The position numbers and the translations under genes were made by a program. A DNA stretch of 64,000 nucleotides, taken from NCBI RefSeq assembly GCF_041415945.1, contig NZ_JBGCUS010000003.1, forward strand, positions 57,084-121,083, written 5' to 3'. The notes beneath the pieces were generated by a model that saw nothing but the letters and a program-made list of their open reading frames with translations, was not told the DNA's origin and made no database searches. The stretch's first letter is position 1, and the number at the start of each line of letters is the position of its first letter. This document shows, piece by piece, positions 1-28,499 of the stretch. The stretch is from Ancylobacter sp. IITR112. GTDB lineage: Bacteria > Pseudomonadota > Alphaproteobacteria > Rhizobiales > Xanthobacteraceae.

Positions 1-779
1 TCGAGGTCTGCGGCCTCGCCGTTTTCTGCAGACTTGCGCTGGATCGCCTTGGCGCCGACGCCGATATGCGTGGTCGGCACCAGGTCGATGCCGCGCTCGG
101 CATAGGAGCGCCCGTCGACGCGGATCTCCAGGCCGGCGAGCGCCAGATGCTGGTTCTGCAGGTCGAGCCAGCCATTGCGCTGCTCCAGGAACTCGGTCTT
201 CTCGCCCGACCAGAGCCGGTAGACGATCTTGCCGGCCCTGTTGCGCAGCACCTCGCCGTCCTCGCCGATGACGGGGATACGCTTCGGGCCGAAGCCGTCC
301 TCGGTCAGTGGCCGCAACGTCGTCATCAGGTGGACGTGCGGATTGCCCGGCTCGTCGTGATACACCCAGTCGGCCACCTGCCCGCGCGCCAGCACCTGCT
401 CGAGCACGAACTGGCGCATCAGGGCGATGTTCTGCTCCTGGGACAGCTCCACGGGCAGCGCGATGATGAACTCGCGGGCGAACTGCGCGTCCTCGCGCTT
501 TTCGAACGCCTCGACCCGGTTCCAGAACGCCTCGACGGCGCCGGCGACGGAACGGTCGGCGATCAGCGCCCTCGCCCATTCCGGCGCGTCAGCCGGCAGA
601 AGGAATTCCTCATGGGCGAGATTGCGCTTGTTGGAATAGTCGACCGTGCGCGCCTCCGCCTCGTACTCCATCCGCGCGCAATGGCGATACGCGGCCGACA
701 GCACGGCGCTGCGGCCATTCCCGCGTCCGATGAGCTGGGGCGTGAAATGCGTGATCGCCACGGTGACGGCGTCTCCCAT
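1..779 (-). CDS. traA: Ti-type conjugative relaxase TraA, N-terminal part (runs off left edge)
   Basis: First ~259 codons of a MobQ/TraA relaxase, the enzyme that nicks oriT and leads the transferred strand into the recipient; full-length relatives exceed 1000 residues and add a helicase domain, which lies outside the window. The N-terminus reads ITHFTPQLIGRGNGRSAVL, followed by SAAYRHCARMEYE and DYSNKRNLAHEEFLLP, the pattern of Agrobacterium and Rhizobium TraA. A metal-binding histidine cluster (NPHVHLMTT) sits near residue 148. ATG at 779 has GAGG five bases upstream; an in-frame GTG at 761, preceded by GGGAG, would give the more usual start at the VAITHFTPQ segment. It is divergent from traC, with oriT between them, exactly as on Ti plasmids. 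Family assignment is secure; the start is uncertain by six codons. Confidence 0.95.
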   Translation of the reverse strand, partial: MGDAVTVAITHFTPQLIGRGNGRSAVLSAAYRHCARMEYEAEARTVDYSNKRNLAHEEFLLPADAPEWARALIADRSVAGAVEAFWNRVEAFEKREDAQFAREFIIALPVELSQEQNIALMRQFVLEQVLARGQVADWVYHDEPGNPHVHLMTTLRPLTEDGFGPKRIPVIGEDGEVLRNRAGKIVYRLWSGEKTEFLEQRNGWLDLQNQHLALAGLEIRVDGRSYAERGIDLVPTTHIGVGAKAIQRKSAENGEAADL

Positions 780-838
780 CGAGGCCTCGAACGGCGTGTT
801 CGTCGGGAGAGGCCGGCCCCGCCAGGGCCGGAGCAGCA

Positions 839-870
839 CGTCGCGCCAGCGACGTATTACTGCGCCGTTG
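839..870 (+). other. oriT core: inverted repeat plus nic-like region
   Basis: A perfect inverted repeat CGTCGC-gcca-GCGACG (839-854) is followed directly by TATTACTGCGCCGTTGG. This is the layout of RSF1010/Ti-type origins of transfer, where a hairpin abuts a nick region ending in a TGCGCC-like motif. From memory, the Ti-plasmid oriT carries the same GCGCCAGCGACG hairpin arm. Its place between divergent traA and traC also matches. The exact nicked bond cannot be fixed by eye. Confidence 0.8.
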
Positions 871-911
871 GAAGCCGCTCCTTCGGAACGGCCGGGATGA
901 TCTCAAGCGGC

Positions 912-1311: not shown

Positions 1312-1531
1312 GCGCATGCACCGGTCGAGCTCATCGGACGCCCGCAAGAAGGACACGCGCGAGAAGATCGAGCTCGGCGGGCTGATCGTGAAAGCTGGGC
1401 TGCGCTACGAGAAGCGCGCCGTGCTGCTCGGCCTGCTCGTCGATGGACATCGCCGGATCGGCGAGGACGATGGCGAGCGTGCGCGGCTCAGCGCCATCGG
1501 CGCGGAAGCCTTCGGGCGCGATCATGAATAA
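1250..1531 (+). CDS. traD: Conjugal transfer protein TraD
   Basis: A small TraD-family protein; its conserved part is [22 protein letters not shown] and a second helix ending [12 protein letters not shown]. The start is ambiguous. ATG 1250 keeps an amphipathic helix ([15 protein letters not shown]) but overlaps traC by 62 bases. ATG 1316, just after the traC stop and preceded by GAGG, gives 71 residues, close to the size I recall for Ti TraD. Its stop overlaps the traG start by eight bases, so traD and traG are probably translationally coupled. It is an accessory protein of the DNA-processing apparatus; molecular role unknown. Confidence 0.8.
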
Positions 1532-3455
1532 GGTGCTATTGGCCGGGCTGCATGCGGCGATCATGATCGCCGTGGCGATCGCGACGACCGGCGCCGAGCA
1601 CTGGCTGGCGGGCTTCGGCAAGACCGAGTCTGCGCGGCTGATGCTCGGCCGTGCCGGGCTTGCGCTCCCCTACGTGCTGTCGGCCGGGGTTGGCGTGATC
1701 CTGCTCTTCGCGGCGGCCGGCGCGATCGCCATCCGGGCGGTCGGATGGGGCGTCGTGACCGGGAGCGCGGCCGTCATCGGCATCGCCACTATCCGCGAAG
1801 GCGCGCGCCTCGCCGCTCTCGCGGGCCGCGTGCCGGCGGGGCAATCTGTGCTCGCCTATGCCGATCCGGGAACGATGATCGGCGCGGCGATCACGCTCGT
1901 CTGCGCGATGTTCGCGCTGCGTGTCGTCATCAAGGGAAACGGCGCTTTCGCCGCGGCGTCTCCGCGCCGGATCAAGGGCCGGCGCGCGATCCATGGCGAG
2001 ACCGACTGGATGCGGATGGAAGCGGCCGGCAAGCTGTTCGGCAATGCCGGCGGCATCGTCATCGGCGAGCGTTACCGGGTCGATCGCGATTCCGTCGCCG
2101 GCAACGCGTTCCGCGCCGACAGCCGCGACAGCTGGGGTGCCGGCGGACGCTCGCCGCTGCTCTGCTTCGACGGCTCGTTCGGCTCCTCGCACGGCATCGT
2201 CTTCGCCGGCTCGGGCGGCTTCAAGACGACGTCGGTGACGATTCCCTCGGCGTTGAAATGGGGCGGCGGCCTCGTGGTGCTCGACCCCTCCTCGGAGGTC
2301 GCGCCGATGGTGATCGGCCATCGGCGCAAGGCGGGCCGCAAGGTGGTGGTGCTCGACCCGGCCGATGCCGCCACCGGCTTCAACGCGCTCGACTGGATCG
2401 GCCGTTTCGGCGGGACGAAGGAAGAGGACATCGTCGCGGTCGCGACCTGGGTGATGACCGATAGCGCGCGGCAGGCTTCGGCGCGCGACGACTTCTTTCG
2501 CGCCTCGGCAATGCAGCTTCTGACGGCGCTGATCGCGGATGTCTGCCTGTCGGGTCATACGGAAAAGAAGGACCAGACGCTCCGGCAGGTCCGCGCCAAT
2601 CTCTCGGAGCCGGAGCCGAAGCTGCGCGAGCGGCTGACCCGGATCTATGAGCAGTCGGGATCGGACTTCGTGAAGGAGAATGTCGCGGTCTTCGTCAACA
2701 TGACGCCGGAGACCTTTTCCGGCGTCTACGCAAATGCGGTCAAGGAGACGCACTGGCTGTCCTATCCGAACTATGCCGCGCTCGTCTCGGGCGACAGCTT
2801 CGCCACCGACGAACTCGCCGACGGCGGGACCGACATCTTCATCGCGCTCGACCTGAAGGTGCTGGAGGCGCATCCGGGACTCGCCCGGGTCATCATCGGC
2901 GCGCTGATGAACGCGATCTACAACCGCAATGGCGAGGTGAAGGACCGCACGCTGTTCCTGCTCGACGAGGTCGCGCGGCTCGGCTTCCTGCGCATCCTGG
3001 AGACCGCCCGCGATGCCGGCCGCAAATACGGCATCACCATGACGCTGCTGTTCCAGTCAATCGGCCAGATGCGCGAGGCGTATGGCGGCCGCGACGCCAC
3101 CTCGAAATGGTTCGAGTCGGCGTCGTGGATCAGCTTCGCCGCGATCAACGATCCCGAGACCGCCGACTACATCTCGCGGCGCTGCGGCGACACTACGGTG
3201 GAGGTCGATCAGCTCAGCCGCTCGTCACAGATGTCGGGCGCGTCGCGGACGCGCTCCAAGCAGCTGGCGCGCCGCCCGCTGATCCTGCCGCACGAGGTCC
3301 TGCGCATGCGGGCCGACGAGCAGATCGTGTTCACCGCCGGCAATCCGCCGCTGCGCTGCGGGCGCGCCATCTGGTTCCGCCGCGAGGACATGAGAAGCTG
3401 CGTCGGCGAAAACAGGTTCCACCGGAAAGAGGCGGTGCAGGGAGGAGCGCTGTGA
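1524..3455 (+). CDS. traG: Type IV coupling protein TraG (VirD4 family)
   Basis: A 643-residue coupling ATPase that links the relaxosome to the mating channel at the inner membrane. The N-terminus has membrane segments (about residues 4-24, 45-75 and 100-130), then the VirD4-type motor domain. Walker A is GSGGFKTTS near residue 230; Walker B is [13 protein letters not shown] near residue 477, with the usual downstream LFQSIGQ helix. The start at 1524 is set by overlap with traD (ATGAATAA), since an upstream in-frame start would run through all of traD. Length matches Ti TraG. The stop overlaps the next gene (GTGA), continuing the coupled operon. Confidence 0.95.
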
Positions 3456-4755: not shown

Positions 4756-5262
4756 TCAAAAGCCGCTCGGCTCCAGCGCGCCGGAGCCGTAGACGATGCG
4801 CCGGGCGTGGAAGCTCACGCCGGTCTCGCAGGCGATCTGGTCAATGATCTGGCGCAGGCCGCAAAGGCTGTGGTCGCTGACCTCGTGCAGCGACGGGCCG
4901 GATTCGGCGAGCGGGTACCAGCGCTTCGTGCGGGGATCGAAGATCTCCTGCGTCGCCAGATCGATGTCGAGATGATCGAGAAGCGGCTGCGCTTGCCCGA
5001 TCCAGCGGTGCTCGAACTCCGCCTCGATCCAATAGAGGTTTTCGGCGGCGTGCTCGGCGCGCGTCGGATCGGCGCCGCCTTGCAGGTAGCGCTTCGCTTC
5101 GACCGCGCGTGTCATCAGCTCGATCAGCTCGCCGAGCTTGGCGACGAGCCGGTCGTGAGCGCAGCGCGCGAGATTGTTGTCGCAGGCGACACGATTGATT
5201 CTTGCGGTGAGCCTGAAGCCGTTCAGGCGCGTGAACAGCGAGAGATAGTCGATGTCGGACAT
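4756..5262 (-). CDS. Hypothetical protein, paralogue of the 7526-8089 gene
   Basis: A 168-residue soluble protein of unknown function. The first ~95 residues are helical and charged; the C-terminal ~60 contain FDPRTKRWYPL, then DHSLCGLRQIIDQIACETGVSFHARRIVY. The same order (YDPSMGRWYRV ... LLDRIERDLGISFSIERVFW) occurs in the gene at 7526-8089, so the two are diverged paralogues. ATG 5262 is set by AAGGAGA eight bases upstream; longer reading of the frame runs through the structured leader and is not believed. It lies convergent to the DUF1173 gene and starts the minus-strand accessory block. Confidence 0.75.
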   Translation of the reverse strand: MSDIDYLSLFTRLNGFRLTARINRVACDNNLARCAHDRLVAKLGELIELMTRAVEAKRYLQGGADPTRAEHAAENLYWIEAEFEHRWIGQAQPLLDHLDIDLATQEIFDPRTKRWYPLAESGPSLHEVSDHSLCGLRQIIDQIACETGVSFHARRIVYGSGALEPSGF

Positions 5263-5314
5263 GAGATGTCTCCTTTCGGTCTGACGGAAGGAGGCCGCAC
5301 CGTAGCCGCGAGGG

Positions 5315-5422
5315 GTCAGGGATCGCGAAGCGACCGCCAGCGGCGGCGAGCAAGGGTGCCGATTTTCCGGCGGCGCCTGGCGGGCGGCGGCGGAAAATTG
5401 GGGGAACCGCGATGTCCTTGAC
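5315..5422 (-). promoter_or_regulatory. Structured leader element, copy 1 (upstream of the 4756-5262 gene)
   Basis: Read on the minus strand, this lies about 50 bases before the ATG at 5262. An outer stem pairs GTCAAGGA with TCCCTGAC (one mismatch). An A/T-based hairpin starts CCCCCAATTTTCCG and returns with CGGAAAATCGGC. Two small hairpins follow, CCGCC/GGCGG and TCGC-ttc-GCGA. It is almost identical (about five differences over ~175 bases) to copy 2. Four further copies with compensatory changes suggest an RNA, or single-stranded DNA, that folds. I do not recognise the family. Confidence 0.6.
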
Positions 5423-5570
5423 GCCGGAGTGGCGGGTGCACAATGGGCCGTCAGAGAGAGGAAAGCCACGGCGCCGGCCAGGCGCCGTGTCCGCAGCCGG
5501 CGGAGCCGGCCGGGTGCGCGAGGGTTGCCCTCGCGACGGGGTGCCCGGTCGATCCGGTCGATCGCGTCCC

Positions 5571-5661
5571 GCGAGAGGGTCGTCACCCGAAGGGCGGAGA
5601 CCGCGCAGCGGGCTCCGTGAGCGAAGCGAATAGAGCCGTACGCCGAAGGCGGATCGCCCAA
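5571..5661 (-). repeat. Second repeated leader element R2, copy a
   Basis: A ~90-base stretch repeated with scattered changes at 8397-8488, each time about 150 bases upstream of a structured leader core and on the same strand. Minus-strand landmarks are GGCGATCCGCCTTCGGCG, then GGCTC...GAGCC enclosing CGCTTCGCTC, then CCCTTCGGGTGACGA and CTCTCGCGGG. It is rich in short hairpins. The rest of 5263-5918 holds leader copy 1 and no gene I can support. Confidence 0.5.
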
Positions 5662-5918
5662 ACCCCTCTCATCATCACGCCGAACATTGAACCACGAGGG
5701 ATCGCGACTTCGACGCGACTGCACCCGATCTGCGCAACTCACGCTCAACATCGCCAGCCGGGAAAACTCGCGGGCGCCGCGCGGCCGTGCCGGCGACGCA
5801 CACGCACGAGAGGCGGGAGCTCCTGGTGCCGCCAGCGCCGCCGCCCGGTCGATCCGGGCGGCGGCGCTTCGGACACGGCAAAGAGCAGAGGCGGCGTGAG
5901 CCGCCTCTGCTCTGGATA

Positions 5919-6296
5919 TCAATCCCTGTCCGGGCCCCAGAGCGGATTGTTCACCGGATCTTCGATTGGATCCTCCTCCAATCGCGCCACCGCGAGGATC
6001 ACCTCCGGGATCGGGCGGCCGCCGATGCGGGTCCGGCGCTGCGCCACCAGAATGCTGACGGCCGTCTCGTTGGCCTCGATCGCCCGAACCGCCTCCTCCA
6101 TATCGTCGTGCGGCTCGAGATTCTCGACGGGGATGACGTCGCCGTCTTCATCGTATCCGCCGTGGAGATAGAGCGGCGCTGTCTCGAGACGCTTCGCGCA
6201 ATCCTCCGCGTCGCGGATCAGGCGGAAGGCCTCGGTCCGCTGCTTCCAATATTCGGCGCTGCCGCCATCGATGGACGTCACGGTTTGATGTGTCAT
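5919..6296 (-). CDS. Hypothetical acidic protein
   Basis: A 125-residue acidic, soluble protein I cannot place in a family. It begins MTHQTVTSIDGGSAEYWKQR, has a helical centre (RDAEDCAKRLETAP; DDMEEAVRAIEANETAVSILV) and ends RIGGRPIPEVILAVARLEEDP...GPDRD. ATG 6296 has AAGGAGA nine bases upstream; reading further upstream passes into the leader element. It stands alone between two long intergenic leaders, so it is probably transcribed with its own 5' region. The leader (copy 2) is nearly identical to that of the next gene downstream, although the proteins are unrelated. Confidence 0.7.
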   Translation of the reverse strand: MTHQTVTSIDGGSAEYWKQRTEAFRLIRDAEDCAKRLETAPLYLHGGYDEDGDVIPVENLEPHDDMEEAVRAIEANETAVSILVAQRRTRIGGRPIPEVILAVARLEEDPIEDPVNNPLWGPDRD

Positions 6297-6350
6297 GAGA
6301 TTTCTCCTTTCGTCTTCTGACGGAAGGAGGCCGCACCGTAGCCGCGAGGG

Positions 6351-6458
6351 GTCAGGGATCGCGAAGCGACCGCCTGCGGCGGCGAGCGGGGGTGCCGATT
6401 TTCCGGCGGCGCCCGGCGGGCGGCGGCGGAAAATTGGGGGAACCGCGATGTCCTTGAC
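6351..6458 (-). promoter_or_regulatory. Structured leader element, copy 2
   Basis: Nearly identical to copy 1 across ~175 bases (6317-6493), with about five substitutions, mostly in loops or unpaired positions. It keeps the outer GTCAAGGA/TCCCTGAC pairing, the AATTTTCCG/CGGAAAAT hairpin and the CCGCC/GGCGG hairpin. It lies directly upstream of the ribosome-binding site of the 5919-6296 gene. Such similarity before two unrelated genes points to recent duplication or gene conversion of the leader itself. Confidence 0.6.
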
Positions 6459-6548
6459 GCCGGAGCGGCGGGTGCACAATGGGCCGTCAGAGAGAAGAAG
6501 AGCCCGCGGCCCCGACCAGGAGCCGCGTCCGTGTGGTCGGGGAGGTTT

Positions 6549-6655
6549 GGAGGGGGTGGACCACCCCCTCCATGGGTGGGGGAGCTTGAGGGGGCGGGGC
6601 TCTGCCCTGCCCCTTCATGGGAGAGGTTGAGAGGGGACTCGCCCCTCTCATTGGG
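6549..6655. repeat. Three tandem GC-rich hairpins
   Basis: Between leader copy 2 and the 6741-7190 gene lie three short inverted repeats in a row: GGAGGGGGTGG-a-CCACCCCCTCC (6549-6571, perfect), GGGGCGGGGC...GCCCTGCCCC (about 6592-6614), and GAGGGGACTCGCCCCTC (about 6631-6648). They could act as terminators for the gene upstream on either strand, or be fold-back repeats. No gene is seen in 6297-6740. Confidence 0.55.
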
Positions 6656-6740
6656 ACCGCAGGGCCGGTCGATCCGGCTTTGCGGTCCGCCTGCGCGGAG
6701 AAGGCGACAGGCGGCCGAAGCCGCCTGCCGCCCTCGGACG

Positions 6741-7190
6741 TCAATCCGCAGCAGACGCCGAAAGGATTGTCGGCGCGACACCCTTGAGCCTCACGTTGAA
6801 GCCACTGACGCGGCTTCCGAAGACGTTCGGCCCACTGAGCACCTCAAACGCGGGCGACAGGACCGGATAGAGGATCGTCAGCATCCCGGCGAAATCCTCG
6901 ATCGGACGCCGGACCGAGACCGTCTCGCCATCGTCGTCATTGCCGATGATGAGCAGGTTTCCCGCGAGCGGACTGCCATAGTCCTTCAGTTCGGTGAAGC
7001 ATGGCAGTTCGCCGGTGAGCCCGTTGTCATTGACGACGACGGAATGGAACCCGTCGATGCGCACCATGTCGATGAGCGCGCATCCAATGTAGCCCCGGAT
7101 CGCAGTGAGAGTATTTTTGGGGTAGACCGTCACGGCGCGGATCGTGCGGCGTTCGACCTCTACGAGATAGGCAGTAATGGTCATTGTCAT
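6741..7190 (-). CDS. DUF3846-like protein
   Basis: A 149-residue protein resembling DUF3846: MTMTITAYLVEVERRTIRAV is a beta-rich start, followed by IRGYIGCALIDMVRI, a variable segment, then SPLAGNLLIIGNDDDGETVS. The small-domain order (catalogue-like strand, IGC, LAG...G.DDEG) fits that family, which is common in plasmids and phages and has no known activity. ATG 7190 is fixed by AAGGAGA eight bases upstream. Leader copy 3 precedes it. Family call is from the sequence pattern, not a search. Confidence 0.65.
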   Translation of the reverse strand: MTMTITAYLVEVERRTIRAVTVYPKNTLTAIRGYIGCALIDMVRIDGFHSVVVNDNGLTGELPCFTELKDYGSPLAGNLLIIGNDDDGETVSVRRPIEDFAGMLTILYPVLSPAFEVLSGPNVFGSRVSGFNVRLKGVAPTILSASAAD

Positions 7191-7245
7191 GCTGATCTCC
7201 TTTCATTGCGATGACGGAGATCGGCCAGGGCAAGTCGAACATCGG

Positions 7246-7354
7246 GTCAGGGATCGCGAAGCGACCGCCGGAGGCGGCGAGCGGGGGGAGCCGATTTTCG
7301 GACGCCGCCCCTTCGGGTGGCGGCCGAAAATTGGGGGGACCGCGATGTCCTTGA
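7246..7354 (-). promoter_or_regulatory. Structured leader element, copy 3
   Basis: Located ~55 bases before the start of the DUF3846-like gene. The A/T-based hairpin is ATTTTCGG/CCGAAAAT here against ATTTTCCG/CGGAAAAT in copies 1-2: a C-G pair has become G-C on both arms, a compensatory change. The outer TCAAGGA/TCCCTGA stem and the CCGCC/GGCGG and TCGC-ttc-GCGA hairpins are kept. Flanking sequence upstream (to ~7395) is shared with copy 4 but not with copies 1-2. Confidence 0.6.
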
Positions 7355-7525
7355 GGCGATGTGAGCGGCCCGTAAGATGGGCAGTCAGAGTGAATGCAAC
7401 CACGGCGCCACCAGGCGCCGTTCCGTATCCGGCGACCAGCCGGCTGCTCCCTCGACGCCAGGCTCCACACGGGAAAAGGGGAGACGACCGCAGCCGCCTC
7501 CCCGTCGCCGGATGGCAGTCCCACG

Positions 7526-8089
7526 TCATCCGGGTTGGGCGGCGGCCCGCGTGCTGCGCGCTTCCTCGTCGAGAGAGAAGGCGACCAGCGTGTCCTCGTT
7601 CCAGAAGACGCGCTCGATGCTGAAGCTGATGCCGAGATCGCGCTCGATCCGGTCGAGCAGCGCGGCCAGCTCGCCGAGCTCCTCCGTGGTGACAGGAATC
7701 CGGATCGGATAGCCCGGCTCCACGCGATACCATCGTCCCATCGAGGGATCGTATGCCCTTCCGTTGCCCGCGAGCGGCGCGGGGTCCAGGAGCTCGGTTC
7801 CGCTCCAATCAATAGCGAAGGCGTCGGAATAGTCGCACCAGCCGGGTTCGGCGTGATCGTCGCGTGCCCGCTCGGCAGGCGTCGTCCTTTCGAGATAATC
7901 GCGATCGGCGGCGAGGATCTCCTGCTCGTAGTCCAGCATATCGTCGAGCACCGCTATCAGGCGGCGGCGAACCTTGCGTGCGACGGGGCGGCTCTCCTTG
8001 CTGCGCCGGCCGAGATGAGCGGCGCGCAGGGAGTGCGCCAGCAGCGCGATCCGGTCGATGTGGAGCTGGATGAGGTCTTCGATCGTCAT
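7526..8089 (-). CDS. Hypothetical protein, paralogue of the 4756-5262 gene
   Basis: A 187-residue protein of unknown function. An N-terminal helical, arginine-rich half (RRSKESRPVARKVRRRL) leads to an acidic centre and a C-terminal segment YDPSMGRWYRV...LAALLDRIERDLGISFSIERVFW, which matches the C-terminal part of the 4756-5262 product in order and key residues (DP..RWY, GxSF). ATG 8089 has AAGGAGA eight bases upstream. Leader copy 4 and repeat R2b lie upstream. The shared C-terminal domain may be the functional unit; nothing catalytic is evident. Confidence 0.75.
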   Translation of the reverse strand: MTIEDLIQLHIDRIALLAHSLRAAHLGRRSKESRPVARKVRRRLIAVLDDMLDYEQEILAADRDYLERTTPAERARDDHAEPGWCDYSDAFAIDWSGTELLDPAPLAGNGRAYDPSMGRWYRVEPGYPIRIPVTTEELGELAALLDRIERDLGISFSIERVFWNEDTLVAFSLDEEARSTRAAAQPG

Positions 8090-8144
8090 GGTGATCTCCT
8101 TCATTTCGATGACGGAGATCGGCCCGGGCAAGTCGCGCATCGGG

Positions 8145-8249
8145 TCAAGGACCGCGGAACGCGGCCGCAGGGCGGCGAGTGGGGGAGCCGATTTTCTGAC
8201 GCCGCCTTCTGGGCGGTGGCTGAAAATTGGGGGGACCGCTCGTCCTTGA
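8145..8249 (-). promoter_or_regulatory. Structured leader element, copy 4
   Basis: The most informative copy. The outer stem is perfect, TCAAGGAC with GTCCTTGA (8 bp). The terminal hairpin is CCGCG-ttc-CGCGG where copies 1-3 have TCGC-ttc-GCGA, so both arms changed together. The small hairpin is GCCGC/GCGGC. The A/T hairpin keeps ATTTTC/GAAAAT but has one A-A mismatch. It precedes the ribosome-binding site of the 7526-8089 gene. Confidence 0.6.
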
Positions 8250-8396
8250 GGCGATGGAAGCGGCCCGTAAAATGGGTCGGCAGAGTGAATGCAACCACGG
8301 CGCCGCCAGGCGCCGTGTCCGCATCCGGCGACCAGCCGGTCCCGCTGCCCTCGCCGCTTTCCGACGGTCCCATGCTCACGCCGCCGGTGCCGCGCC

Positions 8397-8488
8397 GCGA
8401 GAGGATCGTCACCCGAATGGGCGGAGACCGCGTGCGGGCTCCGTGAGCGGAGCGAGTAGAGCCGTCCGCCGCAGGCGGCTCGCCCAAC
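8397..8488 (-). repeat. Second repeated leader element R2, copy b
   Basis: Matches 5571-5661 over ~90 bases, including CTCCGTGAGCG.AGCGA.TAGAGCCGT and CGGCTCGCCCAA. It lies ~150 bases upstream of leader copy 4, the same arrangement as R2a and copy 1. No gene is supported in 8489-8624, although an unassigned reading frame ends with a stop at 8588 (see rejected items). Confidence 0.5.
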
Positions 8489-8624
8489 CGGATCGCGAGG
8501 TTTCGCCGCGGCGCACGGAGAACCGTTTCCACGCGACGAATGGGTCGAGAATGGCTTCAAGGCGCCCGAGAACGCCGTCGAGGGCTAGATGCCGGGGGGC
8601 GATGACGGCACGGCCAAGGCACCC

Positions 8625-9590
8625 CTACGTGGTTGGAGCGAACGCATCGATGCCGGTCAACGCGGCGGACAACCGCCAGAGTCGAGCCGCCTGTTCCGGA
8701 TCGACGGCGTGGCGGCGCACACCGACGAAGGAAGGCTCGACTCCCTCGTCGAGAGGCGCAACATCGCAGTCTTCGCAATATACACCACCTAGCCCACTCA
8801 GCTGAGGCGATGTCGCTGCCCAGACCTGCGTTGCGGCTCCCTGCTGGGGCGTCTTGAAGGTCGGGTCGGCGGGGTTGCCGTTGGTGTCGAGCCAACCGGC
8901 CGCGATCATCTCGTCCTTGGTCAAATGCCGTTGAAGCGGCGTGAAGATCTTGCCGGGGTGCAGGGAAAAGGCACGCACGCCGGAACCGCGCCCGAGTGCA
9001 TCAAGCCGCACGGCGAACAAGGCATTGGCGGTCTTCGACTGCCCATAGGCCAGCCATTTGTCGTACCCCCGCGTGAACTGCACATCGTCCCACCGGATCC
9101 CCGAATTGTGGTGTCCAGCGGACGAGACCGACACGATCCGCGCGCCGCCCGCAAGCGCCGGCCAGAGCAAATTGACGAGGGCATAGTGGCCGAGGTGATT
9201 GGTCGCGAACTGGGCCTCCCATCCCGGTCCGAGCCGCGTTTCGGGACACGCCATGATGCCGGCGCTGTTGATGACGATATCGGCGTGACGACCGGACGCA
9301 AGGAAGCGCCCCGCGAAGGCGCGTACACTGTCCTGGTTTCCAAGATCGAGTTCATCGATCTCAACGCTTGGCATCTCGCCGAGGGTCTCCCGCGCGACGG
9401 CCGGCCGTCGCGCCGCGACGAGGACATGCGCGCCGCCACGGGCGAGCGCGCGCGTCGTCTCCAGGCCGAGACCGGAATGGCCGCCGGTGACAATGGCGAG
9501 CTTCCCAGTCATATCCTGGCCGGCCAGGACCTCCTCGGCCGTCGTCGCGGCGCCGAAGCCCGAGTGGATGGGAGTCTGCAGGCTGGGCAT
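8625..9590 (-). CDS. Short-chain dehydrogenase/reductase
   Basis: A 321-residue classical SDR of the retinol-dehydrogenase-like group (NAD(P)-dependent oxidoreductase, substrate unknown). Visible motifs are the Rossmann cofactor loop TGGHSGLG near residue 35, NSAG (the NNAG position) near 110, a serine in VSVSSAGHH, and the catalytic YGQSK. The N-terminal ~25 residues (PSLQTPIHSGFGAATTAEEV) are usual for this subgroup. ATG 9590 has GGAGG upstream. It is divergent from an AraC regulator, a frequent arrangement in which the regulator controls the reductase. Unlike its neighbours it has no structured leader and is likely cargo. Confidence 0.88.
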   Translation of the reverse strand: MPSLQTPIHSGFGAATTAEEVLAGQDMTGKLAIVTGGHSGLGLETTRALARGGAHVLVAARRPAVARETLGEMPSVEIDELDLGNQDSVRAFAGRFLASGRHADIVINSAGIMACPETRLGPGWEAQFATNHLGHYALVNLLWPALAGGARIVSVSSAGHHNSGIRWDDVQFTRGYDKWLAYGQSKTANALFAVRLDALGRGSGVRAFSLHPGKIFTPLQRHLTKDEMIAAGWLDTNGNPADPTFKTPQQGAATQVWAATSPQLSGLGGVYCEDCDVAPLDEGVEPSFVGVRRHAVDPEQAARLWRLSAALTGIDAFAPTT

Positions 9591-9713
9591 TGGAAACCTC
9601 CAAATGGGTCGGACGCGGGCGGCTGCTTTCGTCGACAAGAAGTACAGGCATGTGCTCGGCACGATCCATGCGCTAGGGTGCGCCATTCTTTGTTGATCGT
9701 ACGGAACTTGGCC

Positions 9714-10640
9714 TTGGACCCTCTTTCCGATGTGCTCTCGCTGCTGAAGCCACGGAGCTATATTTCCGCCGGCCTCGATGCCGGCGGCGAGTGGTCGCTC
9801 GGTTTTCCCGCCCATGAGGGGATCAAGTTCAACGCCGTGATGCGCGGCGCCTGCTGGTTGTCGGTCGAGGGCGATCCAGAAACGGTGCGACTGGTCGAGG
9901 GTGACTGCTTTCTTCTGACGCGCGGCCGTCCCTTCGTACTGGCCTCGGACCCGTCGCTCGATCCGGCTGATTCCCAGCCGGTCTACGAGGCCGCCCGGCA
10001 CGGGATCGCGACGTGCAACGGGGGCGGCGATTTCTTTCTCGTCGGCGGACGGTTTGCTTTCTCGGGCGATCACGCGAGCATGCTCTTTGGTGCCCTGCCG
10101 CCGATCGTGCGTGTGCGGAAAGCGTCCAACCAGGCGACCGTGCTGCGTTGGTCGCTGGAGCTGCTGGCATCCGAATTGCGCGACCGTGAGCCTGGCGGCG
10201 CGCTGGTGACGGAGCATCTCGCCCACATCATGCTGGTACAGGCCCTGCGCCTCTACTTGGCGAACCCGGCCGATATAGGCGTCGGATGGTTCTTCGCCCT
10301 CTCCAATCGGCAGGTTGGCGCCGCGGTGAGCGCCATGCACGCCGATCCGGCCCATCGATGGACACTGGGAGACCTGGGGCGCCTGGCGGGGATGTCTCGG
10401 ACAACCTTCGCCCAGAAGTTCAAGCAGCTAATCGGCATGACGCCGATGGAATATCTCGCACGATGGCGAATGCTTGTCGCAGCCGAGCGGCTGCGCAACT
10501 CGGACGAAACTGTCGCCTCGATTGCGTTTTCACTCGGATACCAGTCCGAGGCCGCGTTCAGCACAGCGTTCAAGAGGACAATGGCCAGCACGCCGATGCA
10601 GTATCGGCGTGGGCGGCCGTACACGCGTGCGAGCGGATAG
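9714..10640 (+). CDS. AraC family transcriptional regulator
   Basis: A 308-residue AraC/XylS regulator with an N-terminal cupin sensing domain (AHEGIKFNAVMRGACWLSV, EGDCFLLTRGRPFVL) of the AraC_binding_2 kind and a C-terminal double HTH from about residue 205: RWTLGDLGRLAGMSRTTFA then the second helix set ending FSLGYQSEAAFSTAFKR. The start is unusual: the frame has no suitable ATG, and TTG 9714 gives the common beginning xDPLSDVLSLLKPRSY; TTG 9690 is an alternative. It probably controls the divergent SDR gene from the 123-base intergenic region. Ligand unknown. Confidence 0.88.
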   Translation: MDPLSDVLSLLKPRSYISAGLDAGGEWSLGFPAHEGIKFNAVMRGACWLSVEGDPETVRLVEGDCFLLTRGRPFVLASDPSLDPADSQPVYEAARHGIATCNGGGDFFLVGGRFAFSGDHASMLFGALPPIVRVRKASNQATVLRWSLELLASELRDREPGGALVTEHLAHIMLVQALRLYLANPADIGVGWFFALSNRQVGAAVSAMHADPAHRWTLGDLGRLAGMSRTTFAQKFKQLIGMTPMEYLARWRMLVAAERLRNSDETVASIAFSLGYQSEAAFSTAFKRTMASTPMQYRRGRPYTRASG

Positions 10641-10776
10641 ATCGCGACGGGTTTTATCGCCGACGATTGAGCCTTCTCGCGGAAGAGGAGAATGCATCAT
10701 CGGAATGAATCGGTCGCCCCTCATCGATTCATGAAAGTCGTTGGACGCCGCTTCCGGAGGAAGGGAGACTCCGGCC

Positions 10777-11040
10777 ATGGAGAAGTTGGAAACGGGTCCG
10801 GTTCATCTTCACCGCATCGATCCGTCGCGGAACATGCGGCGGTTCTATACGCTCGCGATCCAGCCGACGCTGTTCGGCGGGGCGACGGTCATCCGCAACT
10901 GGGGCAGGATCGGGACGAACGGCCAGTCGATGATGGAGACCTTCGATCAGCCTGAGGAGGCTGTGGGCGCGTTCTCGCGCCTAGCCCGGACGAAACGACG
11001 TCGCGGCTATGGCGACGCCGGCGTCAACGGAAACGGCTGA
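10777..11040 (+). CDS. WGR domain protein
   Basis: An 87-residue protein consisting of a single WGR domain: it carries HLHRIDPSRNMRRFYTL, then ATVIRNWGRIGTNGQS, the motif that names the domain, and a lysine/arginine-rich C-terminus. WGR domains bind nucleic acids in eukaryotic PARPs; stand-alone bacterial versions are common on plasmids and their role is not established. ATG 10777 follows a purine-rich GGAGGAAGGGAG. Its 3' end overlaps the convergent toxin gene by 17 bases. Confidence 0.85.
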   Translation: MEKLETGPVHLHRIDPSRNMRRFYTLAIQPTLFGGATVIRNWGRIGTNGQSMMETFDQPEEAVGAFSRLARTKRRRGYGDAGVNGNG

Positions 11041-11437
11041 CCTCGGTGAAGGCTTTCCAGCGGGCGATGAACTCGCGCAGCAGCGGCAGGAAGAAGGCCT
11101 TGCTGAAGCGGCCGATCGGCGGCTCGGGCTCGAGATAGAAGGACCGACCGACAAGATCGGTGTTGAATTCGTCGAGGATGATCCAGAGGCGCAGATCGGT
11201 GTCCAGCCCGGCACGGCGCTTTTCGATGGCCGGGATCTCGGAAAAGAATCGTGATGCTTCCGGTTCCTTGGTGGTGATCGGAAAGAAGAGCACCAGATCA
11301 CCGTCCGGGCGGACGATGCGCACGCCGACAGCGACGGGCCGGTCCTTGCGGCCCTCGGTCTCGCCGGCACGTGCCTGCCGCGCCCACAGATAGGGATAGC
11401 GGATAACGGTCGCGGTCTGGATGTCGTCGAAGCTCAT
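11024..11437 (-). CDS. PemK/MazF-like toxin
   Basis: A 137-residue protein whose start (ATVIRYPYLWARQ), GRKDRPVAVGVRI and DLVLFFPITTKEP segments follow the SH3-like barrel layout of PemK/MazF ribonuclease toxins, of the subgroup annotated as PemK-like in rhizobia. Its start overlaps the stop of the antitoxin gene by four bases (ATGA), so the two are translationally coupled with the antitoxin first, as expected for a type II pair. The C-terminus (FLPLLREFIARWKAF) is longer than in classical MazF. The catalytic activity is inferred from family likeness only. Confidence 0.7.
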   Translation of the reverse strand: MSFDDIQTATVIRYPYLWARQARAGETEGRKDRPVAVGVRIVRPDGDLVLFFPITTKEPEASRFFSEIPAIEKRRAGLDTDLRLWIILDEFNTDLVGRSFYLEPEPPIGRFSKAFFLPLLREFIARWKAFTEVSRFR

Positions 11438-11703
11438 GGCTTTCCGGCCTCATCCTCCCGCGCATAGGCGTCGACGGCGTTCTCGAACTCTGCGAGAAGG
11501 CTGTCGGGCATCGTCTCGATGGTCCCCGCCGAGCGCGCGTCCGACTGGCGCATCAGCCGCTCATAGTCCTCGATGTTGAGGAGCACGAGGCGCGGCTTGT
11601 TGCGCTGGGTGATCGTCACCGGCCGGCGGAGCGCCTCGGCGATGATATCGCCGGACTTCCGGGAAAGCTCGCTCGTGGAATAGGACCCACCTGAACGCGG
11701 CAT
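11434..11703 (-). CDS. Phd/YefM family antitoxin
   Basis: An 89-residue antitoxin. The N-terminal domain reads YSTSELSRKSGDIIAEA with RPVTITQRNKPRLVLL and IEDYERL, the Phd/YefM fold that both dimerises and binds DNA; the acidic C-terminal tail (ENAVDAYAREDEAGKP) would wrap the toxin. It is upstream of the PemK-like toxin and overlaps it by ATGA. An inverted repeat 27 bases before the start is a probable operator, consistent with the autoregulation usual in this family. Confidence 0.85.
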   Translation of the reverse strand: MPRSGGSYSTSELSRKSGDIIAEALRRPVTITQRNKPRLVLLNIEDYERLMRQSDARSAGTIETMPDSLLAEFENAVDAYAREDEAGKP

Positions 11704-11729
11704 AGCGGCCTCCTGTAATTGCTGCCTTT

Positions 11730-11744
11730 GCTGTCATATACAGC
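11730..11744 (-). promoter_or_regulatory. Inverted repeat operator of the Phd/PemK-like pair
   Basis: GCTGT-catat-ACAGC is a perfect 5-bp inverted repeat with a 5-base spacer in an AT-rich patch just upstream of the antitoxin start. Additional half-sites (GCTG at 11721, ACAGC at 11749) flank it. Its place fits autorepression by the Phd-type antitoxin. Confidence 0.6.
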
Positions 11745-11833
11745 ATTCACAGCAACTGTGCAACGGCGGTCCGTCCGAAGCGCCGTCGCCGGGCCGGCAG
11801 CGCTTCGGACAACGCGACATGGCGAAAGCCTCC

Positions 11834-11998
11834 CTACAAGGGAGGCTCGCCGCTCAGCAGACCCTCCAGCTCGGCCCAGATGAGCTCGCACTCCGCGAGA
11901 GCCTTTTCCAGCTCGGCCTCGATCTCGCACCGCTCCACGGCGTCGACGGCGTTTCGCAGCTCGGCGCGCAGTTCCTCGATGTGCTGATCGATCGACAT
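11834..11998 (-). CDS. Small helical protein with structured leader
   Basis: A 54-residue, strongly helical and acidic protein (EELRAELRNAVDAVERCEIEA; LEKALAECELIWAELEGLL), probably a short coiled coil. I do not recognise a family. ATG 11998 has AAGGAGA eight bases upstream, and leader copy 5 precedes it, the same arrangement as the longer hypothetical genes at 4.7-8.1 kb; that shared leader is the main reason to trust the gene. Confidence 0.65.
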   Translation of the reverse strand: MSIDQHIEELRAELRNAVDAVERCEIEAELEKALAECELIWAELEGLLSGEPPL

Positions 11999-12057
11999 TG
12001 GTCGTCTCCTTGATGTTGGTGAAAGACGACACCGGCGGTCATGGCGGGCCGGAGGGG

Positions 12058-12140
12058 TCAAGGAGCGCGAAGCGACCGGCGGAGCCGGCGAGTGGGGGAG
12101 CCGAAATGCGCAGCATTTTGGGGGCACCGCTCGTCCTTGA
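12058..12140 (-). promoter_or_regulatory. Structured leader element, copy 5 (short form)
   Basis: The central hairpin is shortened to AAATGC-tgc-GCATTT: its sequence differs entirely from the ATTTTC/GAAAAT of other copies yet still pairs and still sits between CCCCC and CGGC. The outer stem TCAAGGA/TCCTTGA is perfect. The small hairpin is CCGGC-tcc-GCCGG against CCGCC/GGCGG elsewhere, again compensatory. It lies ~60 bases upstream of the 54-residue gene. Confidence 0.6.
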
Positions 12141-12263
12141 GGCCTTCGGTCCGGCATGGCATCCTCGGACGAACTGAGCAGACATCCCCGCTCCCGGTTG
12201 TGCACCCGACAGACCGGAAGCAGGCTCGATGCCTGCTTCCGGCTGCGACACCGTGGGAGCCGG

Positions 12264-13494: not shown

Positions 13495-14361
13495 TCAGAC
13501 ACCACACATGCCCTCACACTCATTGGGCCAAAGATCGAGCTGGCCATGATCGGCTTCAATCGAGAGATCGGCCTCATCAAGCGGCAGGGCGGAGCGATGG
13601 AGATAGACCTCCCCGCGAATCCCGCGCAGGCCGCTGCGGATGGCACGGTCGATCGCGACGGCGTCGCCCCAAGCGTCGGGATCATGGTCGCGGATGCGCC
13701 TCCACGCGGCGTTGCTGTGGAACGGGCAGCCGATGCACGAGCTCTTCGGCGGAATCGGATAGTCGTGCCGCCGGAGCCAGGCGAGGCAATCCTGCCGGCT
13801 CATGCGCCGCTCGATCAAGGGCCAGCGGTTGACCTGCCACGGCTCGAAGCTCGGCTTGATGCGCACGGCCTCGTCGGTCGAAATGCCGATCCATTGCTCG
13901 GCGACGGCAAACGGGGGCGACCTTTTTCGGGTCAGGCCGAGCAGTTCGCGGACCTTCCTGCGGATCGGCGCGATCTTGTAGTCGCCGGTGCATTGACGGC
14001 GGATCATCCCGATCTCCACCCGGCCGCCGCGCTGGATCACGCGGGTGAATGCCGGGATCGAGGCCCAGCGCTCGCCGCGCGATGCATCGAGGAGATTTTC
14101 GCGGATGTTTCCGGCGGAGACGATGTGAACCGGGAAGGGCAGGACGTTCGGCGACATCAGCCAGCGCAGATGCTCGTAGACCGATGCCGGCTCCCAGCCG
14201 GTATCGGCGAATATGGCAAGGTCCGGCATCGGCCCGACGATGCCGTGCGCCGCCATCAGCGCCAAGGTCGTGGATTGGACTCCGGCCCCGAGGCTGAGCA
14301 CACGGAGCCGGATGGGGGATGGCGCACAGCCATCCCCTTCGACGGTTGGTGCGCGGAACAT
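13495..14361 (-). CDS. PP-loop ATPase (PAPS reductase-like) protein
   Basis: A 288-residue protein with the N-terminal ATP pyrophosphatase loop LSLGAGVQSTTLALM (SxGxxS type) near residue 23 and IFADTGWEP, the motif that follows it in phosphoadenosine phosphosulfate reductase-like enzymes. A C-terminal CIGCPFH pair of cysteines with further CTGDYK suggests a redox or metal site. Stand-alone members in plasmids and phages are of unknown substrate; some relatives modify nucleic acids (DndC). The start at 14361 overlaps the ArdC stop by one base (TGATG), so the two are translated together, an interesting link to anti-restriction. Confidence 0.75.
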   Translation of the reverse strand: MFRAPTVEGDGCAPSPIRLRVLSLGAGVQSTTLALMAAHGIVGPMPDLAIFADTGWEPASVYEHLRWLMSPNVLPFPVHIVSAGNIRENLLDASRGERWASIPAFTRVIQRGGRVEIGMIRRQCTGDYKIAPIRRKVRELLGLTRKRSPPFAVAEQWIGISTDEAVRIKPSFEPWQVNRWPLIERRMSRQDCLAWLRRHDYPIPPKSSCIGCPFHSNAAWRRIRDHDPDAWGDAVAIDRAIRSGLRGIRGEVYLHRSALPLDEADLSIEADHGQLDLWPNECEGMCGV

Positions 14362-15287
14362 CAGGCCGCCTCCTGCACCGTCTCGGCCTGCGGCTGCAAT
14401 CCATGCAGGAAGGTGACGGCTCGCTGTGCGTGGGCGGCGGCAGAGAAGATCGCCCGCTTGTCGTTGGCCAGGACCTTCAGCCAGCTTCCGAGATAGGCGG
14501 CGTGGTCGAGCCTGGGCTCGAGCTCCGGGACGATACCGAGATCGGCACAGAGGAGCGCCGAGCCAATCTCGGCCACGAGTTCTTCGCGCGCCCTCTCGCT
14601 GCGATCCTTCGCGTAGCGGCTGAAATCGCGGCCGACGCGGCGCGGATCCGCCGTCCAGTGCACCGATTCATGGCTGAGAACCGCCACATACGACGCCGCA
14701 TCGCGAAACGTCTCGAACGGCGGCATCTGGATGTGGTCGGTCGACGGCGAATAGAATGCCGCCGAGCCCCCGTGGCGGATCACGGCGCCAGTATGCGCAA
14801 AGAAACGGTCGGCGTGCTCGATCCGCGCCATCGGATCGAGAACGGGCGGCGGCGCGAGATAGAAATTCGCCGGCAGGTCCTCGATCTGGTCGACGTTGAA
14901 GACGCTGTAGGTCTTCAGGAACGGGATATCCCGCTCCACCTCCCCGCCGTGAGCGTCCGTCTCGGTCTTCGTGAAACGACTGGCGTAGATGACGATCGAG
15001 CCGGATTCGCCCTTGCGAACATGGCCACCGAGCTCGACCGCCTGTTTGAAGGTCATCCAGGTCGGCGAGGCGAAGCCCCGCGCCATGGCCTCCGACCACA
15101 GCAGCAGCACGTTCATGCCGGAATACGGCTCTCCGGTATGACGCAGCGGGCGGGTGATCCGGCCGGTCGCATTTGCCGCGCTCCATGGCCGGATCCACGG
15201 TCGCACGCCCTTTTCGAGATCGGCGACAATCCGCTCGGTAATCCTGGCGTAGATGTCGCCGCGCTCGCCAATCTCTTTCCTGCTCAT
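14361..15287 (-). CDS. ardC: ArdC-type anti-restriction protein
   Basis: A 308-residue ArdC: an N-terminal ssDNA-binding domain (RGDIYARITERIVADLEKGVR, RPLRHTGEPYSGMNVL) and a C-terminal zincin-like metallopeptidase domain with HESVH (HExxH) near residue 207. ArdC protects incoming single-stranded DNA from the recipient's restriction systems during conjugation, so the gene suits a mobile element. ATG 15287 lies after GGAGG. It overlaps the PP-loop gene downstream. All expected motifs are intact. Confidence 0.92.
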   Translation of the reverse strand: MSRKEIGERGDIYARITERIVADLEKGVRPWIRPWSAANATGRITRPLRHTGEPYSGMNVLLLWSEAMARGFASPTWMTFKQAVELGGHVRKGESGSIVIYASRFTKTETDAHGGEVERDIPFLKTYSVFNVDQIEDLPANFYLAPPPVLDPMARIEHADRFFAHTGAVIRHGGSAAFYSPSTDHIQMPPFETFRDAASYVAVLSHESVHWTADPRRVGRDFSRYAKDRSERAREELVAEIGSALLCADLGIVPELEPRLDHAAYLGSWLKVLANDKRAIFSAAAHAQRAVTFLHGLQPQAETVQEAA

Positions 15288-15632
15288 TTTCCTGAACCTC
15301 CGTTGTGGAGGCCGCGCCGATCGCGGCCCCGTCACGGGGTCCGGTTGCCGGGGGAACAGGCGAGACCGCGCACCCGGAGGCGCCCGACCGCAGGGCGAGG
15401 CGCGACGGGCCGCAACGAAGTGGAGGACGGCGAAGCCGTTGCGCTGACCGCCGGCCCCGGCAGGACCTCCTTCCAGGACGGGACGCGCACGGCGCGCTCT
15501 CCTGCCATTCCTCTTCCTTCCGCGATCGACTGAGCTTTGGTTGCGACATGCGAAAAGGCCGGCGCCTGGAGGGGCCGGCCTGGTCTCATTCAAGCGATGG
15601 GATGGGCGGAGCCGAAGCTCCGCCCGGGCGGC
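15288..15632. other. Intergenic region upstream of ardC
   Basis: About 345 bases without a credible gene. It is very GC-rich with several short fold-backs, for example GGCCGCGATCGGCGCGGCC and CAACGGCTTCGCCGTCC on the minus strand. It does not contain the leader core with the TCAAGGA outer stem. It probably holds the ardC promoter and a leader of a different type. Confidence 0.4.
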
Positions 15633-21308: not shown

Positions 21309-22034
21309 TTGCGCGGCATTGATTTCAGCTCCTGGCAAAGCGTGCTCGTCACGCTGATCGGGCTCGCGCTGTTCACCCTGATCAGCATCGGCATCCGCCT
21401 GCTGATGATGTTCACGATCCAGCAACGGCGGGAGCGCATGAACCGCCAGATCAATGAGCGGCTGCGCACGCTGATCGCCGCCTACAAGACGCTCGGAGGT
21501 TCGTTCACCGGCAATCTCACCGTCGATCCCAGGCATCTGCGCGATGTGAATCGGCAGGATCGCGAAGCTGTGGGAGACGAAGAGCCGGACGACGAGGGCG
21601 AGGATCCGGGTGCCGAACGCAGTGGCCCCTCGGACCGGAGGCGCCGTATTCGCGATGCGGTGGAGGCGGCGCTTTCCGACATCATCCTGCTCGGCACCGA
21701 AGAGCAGGTTCGCCTCGCAGAACGTGCCGTGCGTGAGCTGTTGGCCGGGCGCCCTGTTCGCACGGATGAGCTCGTGGTGTCGCTGCGCAGCTTCATCCGC
21801 GAAGCGCTCGATATCGGACCGATCCCGACGGACCTAGCCATCCCTCAGCAAGGCCCTACCCGGCCCTCGAGCTCGGGCGGGCGAGGCAAAGGCGAGAGCG
21901 GGCGGGAGGGCTCGGGGAAGGGCTCCGGCGCCGGCGCCGGAATGGGCGGCGGCATGGGGATGGGCGGCATGGGCGCTGGCTTCGGAACCGGCGTTTCTCC
22001 GGACGACGACCCCCCAACGGATCATCGCACATAG
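21309..22034 (+). CDS. Single-span membrane protein with glycine-rich tail
   Basis: A 241-residue protein, the only plus-strand gene between 11.1 and 31.7 kb. One membrane segment (about residues 11-36, VLVTLIGLALFTLISIGIRL) is followed by a conserved cytosolic part (MNRQINERLRTLIAAYKTLGGSFTGNL; RIRDAVEAALSDIILLGTEEQ; VVSLRSFIREALDI) and a Gly/Met/Ser-rich tail. I recall homologues across proteobacteria but no function. The start is TTG 21309, chosen because GGAGG lies five bases before it and no ATG fits. It is convergent with the methylase-helicase gene. Confidence 0.75.
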   Translation: MRGIDFSSWQSVLVTLIGLALFTLISIGIRLLMMFTIQQRRERMNRQINERLRTLIAAYKTLGGSFTGNLTVDPRHLRDVNRQDREAVGDEEPDDEGEDPGAERSGPSDRRRRIRDAVEAALSDIILLGTEEQVRLAERAVRELLAGRPVRTDELVVSLRSFIREALDIGPIPTDLAIPQQGPTRPSSSGGRGKGESGREGSGKGSGAGAGMGGGMGMGGMGAGFGTGVSPDDDPPTDHRT

Positions 22035-28341: not shown

Positions 28342-28451
28342 GTCGGGGCTCCTTCAGCCTCGTCGGGCCGGAGCGCGGCGCATCCTCCTGGATCACCATC
28401 ATCTTCAGCCCTTCAGGACCTCTCCCCGCGGCCGCATCGAAGCCCGGGCGG

Positions 28452-28499
28452 GTCAAGGGCCGCGCAGCGGGCGAAGCTTCACCCTTGACGCGGCCGGCG
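28452..28499 (-). promoter_or_regulatory. Hairpin with the leader outer-stem motif, upstream of the DUF1419 gene
   Basis: Minus strand GTCAAGGG (28499-28492) pairs perfectly with CCCTTGAC (28459-28452), with an inner GAAGCTTCGCCCGCTGCGCGG segment. The stem motif is the same TCAAGG/CCTTGA as the outer stem of leader copies 1-5, but the A/T central hairpin is missing. It overlaps the end of the Toprim gene and lies ~110 bases before the DUF1419 start. Confidence 0.45.

Follow-up and report, generated by a model that had tools for sequence, protein, structure and literature searches.

Conserved folded elements before leading-region genes of alphaproteobacterial plasmids: probable promoters on the transferred single strand

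What kind of element would stand, in nearly the same form, directly before several small genes that are not all related to one another? This question is raised by a stretch of 64,000 nucleotides of Ancylobacter sp. IITR112 (contig NZ_JBGCUS010000003.1, positions 57,084 to 121,083; here called the window), in which five such copies lie between positions 5315 and 12140. A preliminary description preferred a cis-acting leader RNA of the minus strand, and gave a DNA-level role in conjugation as its second choice. Our computational analysis suggests that each copy is most probably a Frpo-like promoter of the leading region, acting in single-stranded DNA and unrelated in sequence to the Frpo of plasmid F. 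In passages of PMC9849209 and PMC11541004, the Frpo single strand is described as forming, by folding, a stem in which -10 and -35 boxes are present. The computed features on which our reading is built are a conserved fold, the strand that forms it, promoter-like boxes, matching flanks, and the position and direction of the copies relative to the nick site (nic) of the origin of transfer (oriT).

The five copies and their conserved fold

The positions and the minus strand first given for the copies were borne out for all five. When a covariance model built from them (R1) was run over the window, the copies themselves scored 99.6–132.9 bits, and nothing beyond them exceeded 24.7 bits; the remaining eight matches scored 13.8–24.7 bits, and four of these were plus-strand echoes within the copies. 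Model R2 recovered the same five and one weak match at 28446–28492 (17.7 bits, E 0.68). The element cores, of 94–119 nt, were as follows:

5309..5425, folded strand plus (template and transferred strand): core of element 1, R1 132.9 bits, outlier in the strand-difference scan
6345..6461, plus: core of element 2, R1 130.2 bits, outlier in the strand-difference scan
7240..7358, plus: core of element 3, R1 127.4 bits, below the cut-off of three standard deviations in the strand-difference scan
8138..8253, plus: core of element 4, R1 115.2 bits, outlier in the strand-difference scan
12051..12144, plus: core of element 5, with a short central hairpin, R1 99.6 bits, outlier in the strand-difference scan

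As had been claimed, each copy is placed directly before a ribosome-binding site, with start codons at 5262, 6296, 7190, 8089 and 11998. The outer stem proposed at first, TCAAGGA/TCCTTGA, stood only in part: it forms without mismatch in the copies at 8145 and 12058, and the other three carry TCCCTGA, which is an A.C mismatch on the minus (gene) strand. The conserved unit was also larger than first described, extending some 40 nt beyond each copy on the upstream side and, downstream, as far as the start codon. That the element matches no known RNA family was confirmed, as no Rfam family reached its gathering score in the 64 kb and none came near it in the element region.

The family was analysed in a working set of 202 places, 191 of them unique. 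A start codon with a ribosome-binding site was present in 187 of the 191 places, at a median of 51 nt from the core and within 43–60 nt in 166. Of all cells in the first set (94 distinct rows), 94.2% were paired, and the paired substitutions that had been proposed as a test of conserved structure were found, with 21 of 24 pairs changing on both sides. The covariation score reached 0.294, whereas shuffles gave 0.073 and sliding gave no more than 0.057; the score is favoured by an alignment that had been fitted to the model, and related rows were counted many times. Whole stems were exchanged: the central hairpin is AATTTT/AAAAT in many copies and AAAATGC/GCATTT in others, and the outer stem of one copy (L018) is TCAAAACC/GGTTTTGA. 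The two sides of the 5x5 internal loop are also matched, in most cases as TnCCC with CnCCC or as CCCCT with TTCCT. The window copies taken singly, as gene-strand RNA, folded only modestly better than shuffles (z -1.2 to -3.9); unlike this single-copy folding, the family-wide comparison makes the structure certain.

Folded strand, direction of transfer and promoter-like boxes

Next, the two strands were compared. On the gene strand, the outer stem contained 76 A.C and 5 G.T cells in 127 rows, the third pair of P2 (the stem with the internal loop) was C.A in 53 of 104, the third pair of P3 (the apical hairpin) was A.C in 103 of 104, and the covariation table gave pair 11-249 as unpaired in 48 of 94 rows. 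Mismatches that are A.C on the gene strand become G.T on the template strand, indicating that the template strand is the one that pairs. In agreement, calculated with DNA energies, it folded better than the gene strand in 190 of the 191 unique cores, by a mean of 8.0 kcal/mol. The lone exception (L025) is probably still on the wrong strand; under a different rule it gives CTTGAC and CACAAT. Control stretches in the genes behind the elements were even, with 91 against 90 of 184. Among divergent cores, the template strand was better in 48 of 51 before strand correction, and the mean folding z of the 51 divergent copies was -3.62 for the template and -2.04 for the gene strand. Three copies (L024, L031 and L036) were turned to the correct strand in the set of 191, and were on the wrong one in the nic-pair, divergent-core, control, flank-pairing, base-pairing and F plasmid comparisons. 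A scan of the window for strand differences gave six plus-strand outliers, four of which were elements (copy 3 fell below the cut-off), and three minus-strand outliers at 38276, 40251 and 49651. The other two plus-strand outliers, 21826–21975 and 23426–23625, both lie within coding sequence and were set aside.

The folded strand is also the one predicted to enter the recipient. The start of the window lies within a Ti-type transfer region, with TraA to the left of the oriT stretch and TraC and TraG to its right:

1..839, minus: start of the gene for the TraA relaxase, which continues to the left of the window (L186 3043–6423, minus strand; MobA_MobL, PF03389, E 1.3e-75, with helicase and BID domains)
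851..871, plus: nic motif of oriT, with the nick probably after base 864; homologous to the oriT of pTi-SAKURA between traC and traA
1015..1311, plus: TraC (PF07820, E 1.4e-28)
1443..3455, plus: TraG/VirD4 coupling protein (PF02534, E 5e-162)

The nick position and direction were read from the RSF1010/Ti nic motif, and we take the transferred strand (T-strand) to be the plus strand, running right. By the direction of this motif, the plus strand would leave first, through traC and traG and then the five elements, which lie 4.5–11.2 kb from nic in the leading region, where the transferred strand is the template of their genes. The same arrangement, in which the element lies on the leading side and its gene has the T-strand for template, was found in 33 of 33 element-nic pairs from 21 sources, including pTi-SAKURA and a Shinella plasmid; the plasmids are related, and the pairs are not independent. 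The distances ranged from 774 to 22498 nt, with a median of 4557. In the IITR112 genome, eight of the nine copies have a nic motif on their contig, and the rule holds for each of the eight. Nic was sought as the Ti/RSF1010 motif only, and was seen in the 21 sources.

Some observations on these plasmids can be added. The IITR112 genome has three Ti-type nic motifs, that of the window being CCGTTGG and the other two (contigs C2 and C8) CCCTTGG. Plasmid pTi-SAKURA (L167, NC_002147.1) carries nic at 100331 and three elements, at 71940, 77778 and 96443, that all point the same way; transport and metabolic genes separate the two far elements from the near one. In pNGR234a a Ti-type nic motif is present, and no element was found there. 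Further right in the window, an ArdC gene (14361–15542) and a gene for a ParB-domain protein follow. Such proteins are typical of leading regions, and the F plasmid stretch likewise shows an antirestriction and a ParB-family gene.

The boxes were found on the same strand. In the folded T-strand, the 3' arm of the outer stem reads CTTGAC or CTTGAG, which are close to the alphaproteobacterial -35 box, and a -10-like hexamer lies beyond it:

5417–5422 and 5439–5444, plus: boxes of element 1, -35 CTTGAC, spacer 16, -10 CACAAT
6453–6458 and 6475–6480, plus: boxes of element 2, -35 CTTGAC, spacer 16, -10 CACAAT
7350–7355 and 7373–7378, plus: boxes of element 3, -35 CTTGAG, spacer 17, -10 TAAGAT
8245–8250 and 8268–8273, plus: boxes of element 4, -35 CTTGAG, spacer 17, -10 TAAAAT
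12136–12141 and 12160–12165, plus: boxes of element 5, -35 CTTGAG, spacer 18, weak -10 CATCCT
5263–5308, 6297–6344, 7191–7239, 8090–8137 and 11999–12050, minus: gene-side flanks of elements 1–5, delimited by the start codons and by the flank pairing of the family

For the count in the whole family, 13 of the 191 copies were dropped (3 with a short flank and 10 without the anchor). The pattern nAnnnT was present 16–19 nt beyond the stem-borne CTTGA in 152 of the remaining 178 copies, against a mean of 24 and a maximum of 37 in 500 shuffles; at nine other offsets it was found in 2–44 copies. The commonest hexamers (n=114) were CACAAT (12), TATGAT (8) and CACACT (7). Within 45 divergent flanks, less than 60% identical, the hexamer was kept in 35 (shuffles: mean 6.6, maximum 12), which makes common descent alone a poor explanation. 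In the direction of the gene, the pattern was found in only 10 of 174 copies, and an ordinary gene-directed promoter inside the element was rejected on this count and on a second one (5 of 114, against 16 on average in shuffles). In linear double-stranded DNA, the boxes of the element face away from the gene.

The flanks were found to match each other. The gene-side flank, which carries the ribosome-binding site, has its pairing partner in the flank on the -10 side, and in linear DNA the whole core lies between them. For divergent copies, flank-flank pairing was 0.352 per nt, against 0.170 for swapped and 0.185 for shuffled flanks, and the pairing of a copy's own flanks was above the swapped value in 41 of 47 and above the shuffled value in 40 of 47. 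Among 140 copies selected for the hexamer, the predicted mean pairing was 0.83 in the -35, 0.72–0.80 in the spacer and 0.42 in the -10; the -10 of the window copies had a predicted pairing of 0.11–0.42.

Proposed mechanism and rival explanations

These features can be joined in a mechanism. During transfer, the plus strand would enter the recipient with its 5' end first, and each copy would fold in it, forming the apical A/T-rich hairpin P3 and the purine-rich 5x5 internal loop on stem P2, with two small hairpins branching off and the outer stem P1 bearing CTTGAC or CTTGAG. Below P1 the flanks would zip together, leaving a mostly unpaired -10 hexamer 16–19 nt beyond. The 5' arm, running on into the gene, would then be the template, with the 3' arm as its non-template counterpart. 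RNA polymerase would start about 20–30 nt before the start codon, and the gene could be transcribed before a second strand exists. After conversion to double-stranded DNA, with the boxes facing away, the gene would fall silent. RNA made from the element may also prime second-strand synthesis. Polymerase binding, the start point, early and transient expression, and a purpose in establishment or counter-defence are what we infer from the computed features.

A more elaborate view, which we consider rather unlikely, is that of a two-level sensor of strandedness, which would restrict expression of the genes to the single-stranded state, through both transcription and translation. The folded single strand would be the promoter and give a short mRNA with a free ribosome-binding site, and a read-through mRNA from double-stranded DNA would hold the complementary stretch and hide the site in a hairpin; the branched core and the conserved purine loop would form a dedicated module for single-strand recognition. 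Folding of the long transcript, including that of the window copies, showed that a second hairpin between the core and the start codon often hides the ribosome-binding site, and the 5' half of this hairpin would fall upstream of the start predicted on single-stranded DNA.

The Frpo-like promoter was compared with the F plasmid itself. There, two stretches that we take to be the places of Frpo2 (before ssb) and Frpo1 (before the gene at 64032) favour folding of the template strand, by 7.5 and 7.1 kcal/mol respectively. Model R2 gave no match in the F leading region (L170), indicating that the element does not belong to the sequence family of the F Frpo.

The leading-region place and the strand would be identical for a single-strand initiation site, at which primase or RNA polymerase makes the primer of the second strand and the gene is incidental. 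Moreover, Frpo itself reportedly serves in both transcription and primer RNA synthesis, according to the title of a 1997 paper by Masai and Arai. We nevertheless regard such a site as improbable, since gene, repetition and boxes are all needless for a site that serves priming alone, whereas here a start codon and ribosome-binding site are kept at a fixed distance (43–60 nt in 166 of 191 places) and the copies are repeated: the window has five, all of them preceding a gene, and two Shinella records give seven apparent matches. The first choice of the preliminary description, a leader RNA, formed by folding of the minus-strand transcript and acting on the translation or termination of the gene behind it, would account for the place directly before the ribosome-binding site and for the paired substitutions in the stems, and a hairpin over that site had a pairing above 0.7 in 68 of 129 copies, against 23 of 129 in the shuffled control. 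The evidence on the strand speaks against it and makes it quite improbable: the conserved mismatches are A.C on the gene strand, pair 11-249 is unpaired there in about half of the rows, the template strand folds better in all unique cores except one, and a -10 in the gene direction is rare. It had been stated at first that a start of transcription downstream of the element would count against a leader, and the promoter-like boxes place the likely start there. Hiding the ribosome-binding site was also rejected as the function of the core, as it is only partly general and the hairpin lies apart from the site in several copies. A structured antisense or independent RNA read from the plus strand would have the advantage that this strand folds better also as RNA, since the wobble pairs fall there; we hold it to be the least probable of all, because the boxes lie at or beyond the 3' end of the core and in double-stranded DNA would not transcribe it, neither strand has an Rfam match, and the T-strand rule would be left unexplained. 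The second choice of the preliminary description, a DNA-level role in conjugation, is the one supported, and is specified here as a folded promoter on the transferred strand.

Several results weigh against this Frpo-like promoter. Regarding nic, the Ti/RSF1010 motif was not found for R. leguminosarum plasmid p3, and the placement in the leading region covers no Sphingomonas or Acetobacter copies. In Paracoccus plasmid pPAN2 (L168), the only near match to nic, a motif with two mismatches (NZ_CP044425.1, 150965–150981), would disagree with the element at 173208, whose gene would be read from the other strand; pPAN2 is typed as non-mobilizable, and we take the motif, with some doubt, to be a chance match. 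As for the boxes, the TTGA anchor was imposed by the script that finds them, 26 of the 178 usable copies have no nAnnnT at 16–19 nt, the -10 is weak in window copy 5 (CATCCT) and in similar copies (CACCCT, CATCCT), and three of the five window copies have CTTGAG instead of CTTGAC. The longest shared run just below the -10 was 4.95, only slightly above the 4.59 of swapped flanks (maximum 4.87). The strand asymmetry is carried mainly by three columns, and elsewhere in P2 the gene strand has 10 G.T against 3 A.C. In plasmid F, a third stretch, before a DUF932 gene, shows no preference for the template strand, a strict scan of the F stretches gave no boxes, and the gene strand is favoured in parts of them; the F comparison supports the strand and the fold as a whole, not the box finder.

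Genes behind the element, distribution and related systems

The genes that follow the five copies in the window are:

4756..5262, minus: gene after element 1, 168 aa, without a Pfam or NCBIfam family; cluster of 29
5919..6296, minus: gene after element 2, 125 aa, no family; cluster of 11
6741..7190, minus: gene after element 3, 149 aa, DUF3846 (PF12957, E 9.8e-12)
7526..8089, minus: gene after element 4, 187 aa, distantly related to that after element 1
11834..11998, minus: gene after element 5, 54 aa, no family at cut-off; commonest family behind the element (78 of 187)

The statement that these genes are not all related was correct: those after the copies at 5315 and 8145 are distant relatives, with 26% identity, and the other three belong to three further clusters. 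That the structure rather than the gene is conserved was also seen in the whole family, where the 187 reading frames behind the element fell into 28 clusters (sizes 78, 29, 13, 12, 11, 9, 4, 4, 4, 3, 2 and 2, and 16 singletons, some of which may be chance frames). A Pfam name was obtained for 2 of 11 tested proteins (the five of the window and six cluster representatives), namely DUF3846 and a SLOG-type YAcAr family. Naming the genes behind the elements as defence-related was rejected, as PADLOC gave only a weak SspD match, at 13495–14361, which is not behind an element. The protein encoded there resembles SspD, a component of the Ssp defence system, only weakly (E 8e-8) and has no Pfam family. 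Among other neighbours, 11024–11703 holds a Phd/YefM-type antitoxin gene and an overlapping gene of 137 aa without Pfam family, perhaps a toxin-antitoxin-like pair. The stretch 8625–10640 between elements 4 and 5, with a short-chain dehydrogenase gene and an apparently AraC-like plus-strand frame, is perhaps an insertion into the leading region. A helicase-like protein of 1703 aa is encoded at 22107–27218, with partial matches of the DISARM DrmD type far below the cut-offs.

The element is also found beyond the window. The IITR112 genome has nine copies on four contigs; an element on contig C8 (8436 bases) agrees in every base of its core and near flanks with one on C2 (L002, L003). A BLASTN search with one copy and its flanks matched 532 of 72,556 plasmid records, mostly of Rhizobium and Agrobacterium; 366 of the 532 were typed as conjugative, and the best match was a plasmid of A. 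polymorphus. In named genomes, a sequence pattern found at least 120 stretches, and 113 of these 120 contained a model match, in Rhizobium, Agrobacterium, Sinorhizobium, Mesorhizobium, Aureimonas, Bosea, Methylorubrum, Paracoccus, Sphingomonas, Novosphingobium and Acetobacter. The seven loci without a model match (L094, L110, L124, L128, L150, L153 and L161), six from other phyla and one from Sphingomonas, were excluded as chance. The model search found the element in 18 of 296 genomes of the family of the window (E at most 0.001), in 10 of 385 of its class and in 13 of 398 of its phylum (both E at most 1e-5), all 13 being of the same class; the strict Infernal filters drop weak matches, and these counts are lower bounds.

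The closest likeness is with the Frpo/ssi elements of F, ColIb-P9 and related enterobacterial plasmids. As described in passages of PMC9849209 and PMC11541004, they too lie in the leading region with the T-strand as template, occur in more than one copy before different leading genes, and join the -35 and -10 in the folded strand. Unlike Frpo, the element here is about 200 nt long; its core is branched, its 5x5 loop is purine-rich and conserved, and the -35 is borne by the outer stem. It is found in alphaproteobacterial hosts, with an oriT of the Ti/RSF1010 type in 21 of 21 placed sources (only that motif being sought). With the sso, ssi and PAS sites it shares a structure that acts on the transferred or displaced single strand, and differs in having a gene and ribosome-binding site at a fixed distance and kept -35/-10-like boxes. 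Conserved stems before ribosome-binding sites are also found in Rfam cis-regulatory leader RNAs; unlike these, the better-folding strand is here the other one, and the 64 kb gave no family at gathering score.

As described in part of PMC11541004, Frpo was sought by BLAST with five known sequences, and four chosen islands were scanned by box consensus, with a further BLAST with the resulting candidates; the relevant part of PMC12826799 describes a BLAST with the sequences from PMC11541004. By these descriptions, both surveys would likely miss the present family, and the terms 'rhizob' and 'Alphaproteobacteria' are absent from their main texts. Among the matches listed in the open-licence PMC literature, no earlier report was found of the element family, or of early single-strand expression in Ti-type, symbiotic or sphingomonad plasmids.

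Early expression from the entering single strand is already established for F-like plasmids, and a comparison of folding energy between the two strands is a simple way to search for such promoters without sequence similarity. If our reading is true, the family marks leading regions on the plasmids by which symbiosis and tumour genes pass among soil bacteria, and the mostly unnamed small proteins behind it, in 28 clusters at 187 places, would be candidate establishment or counter-defence genes.

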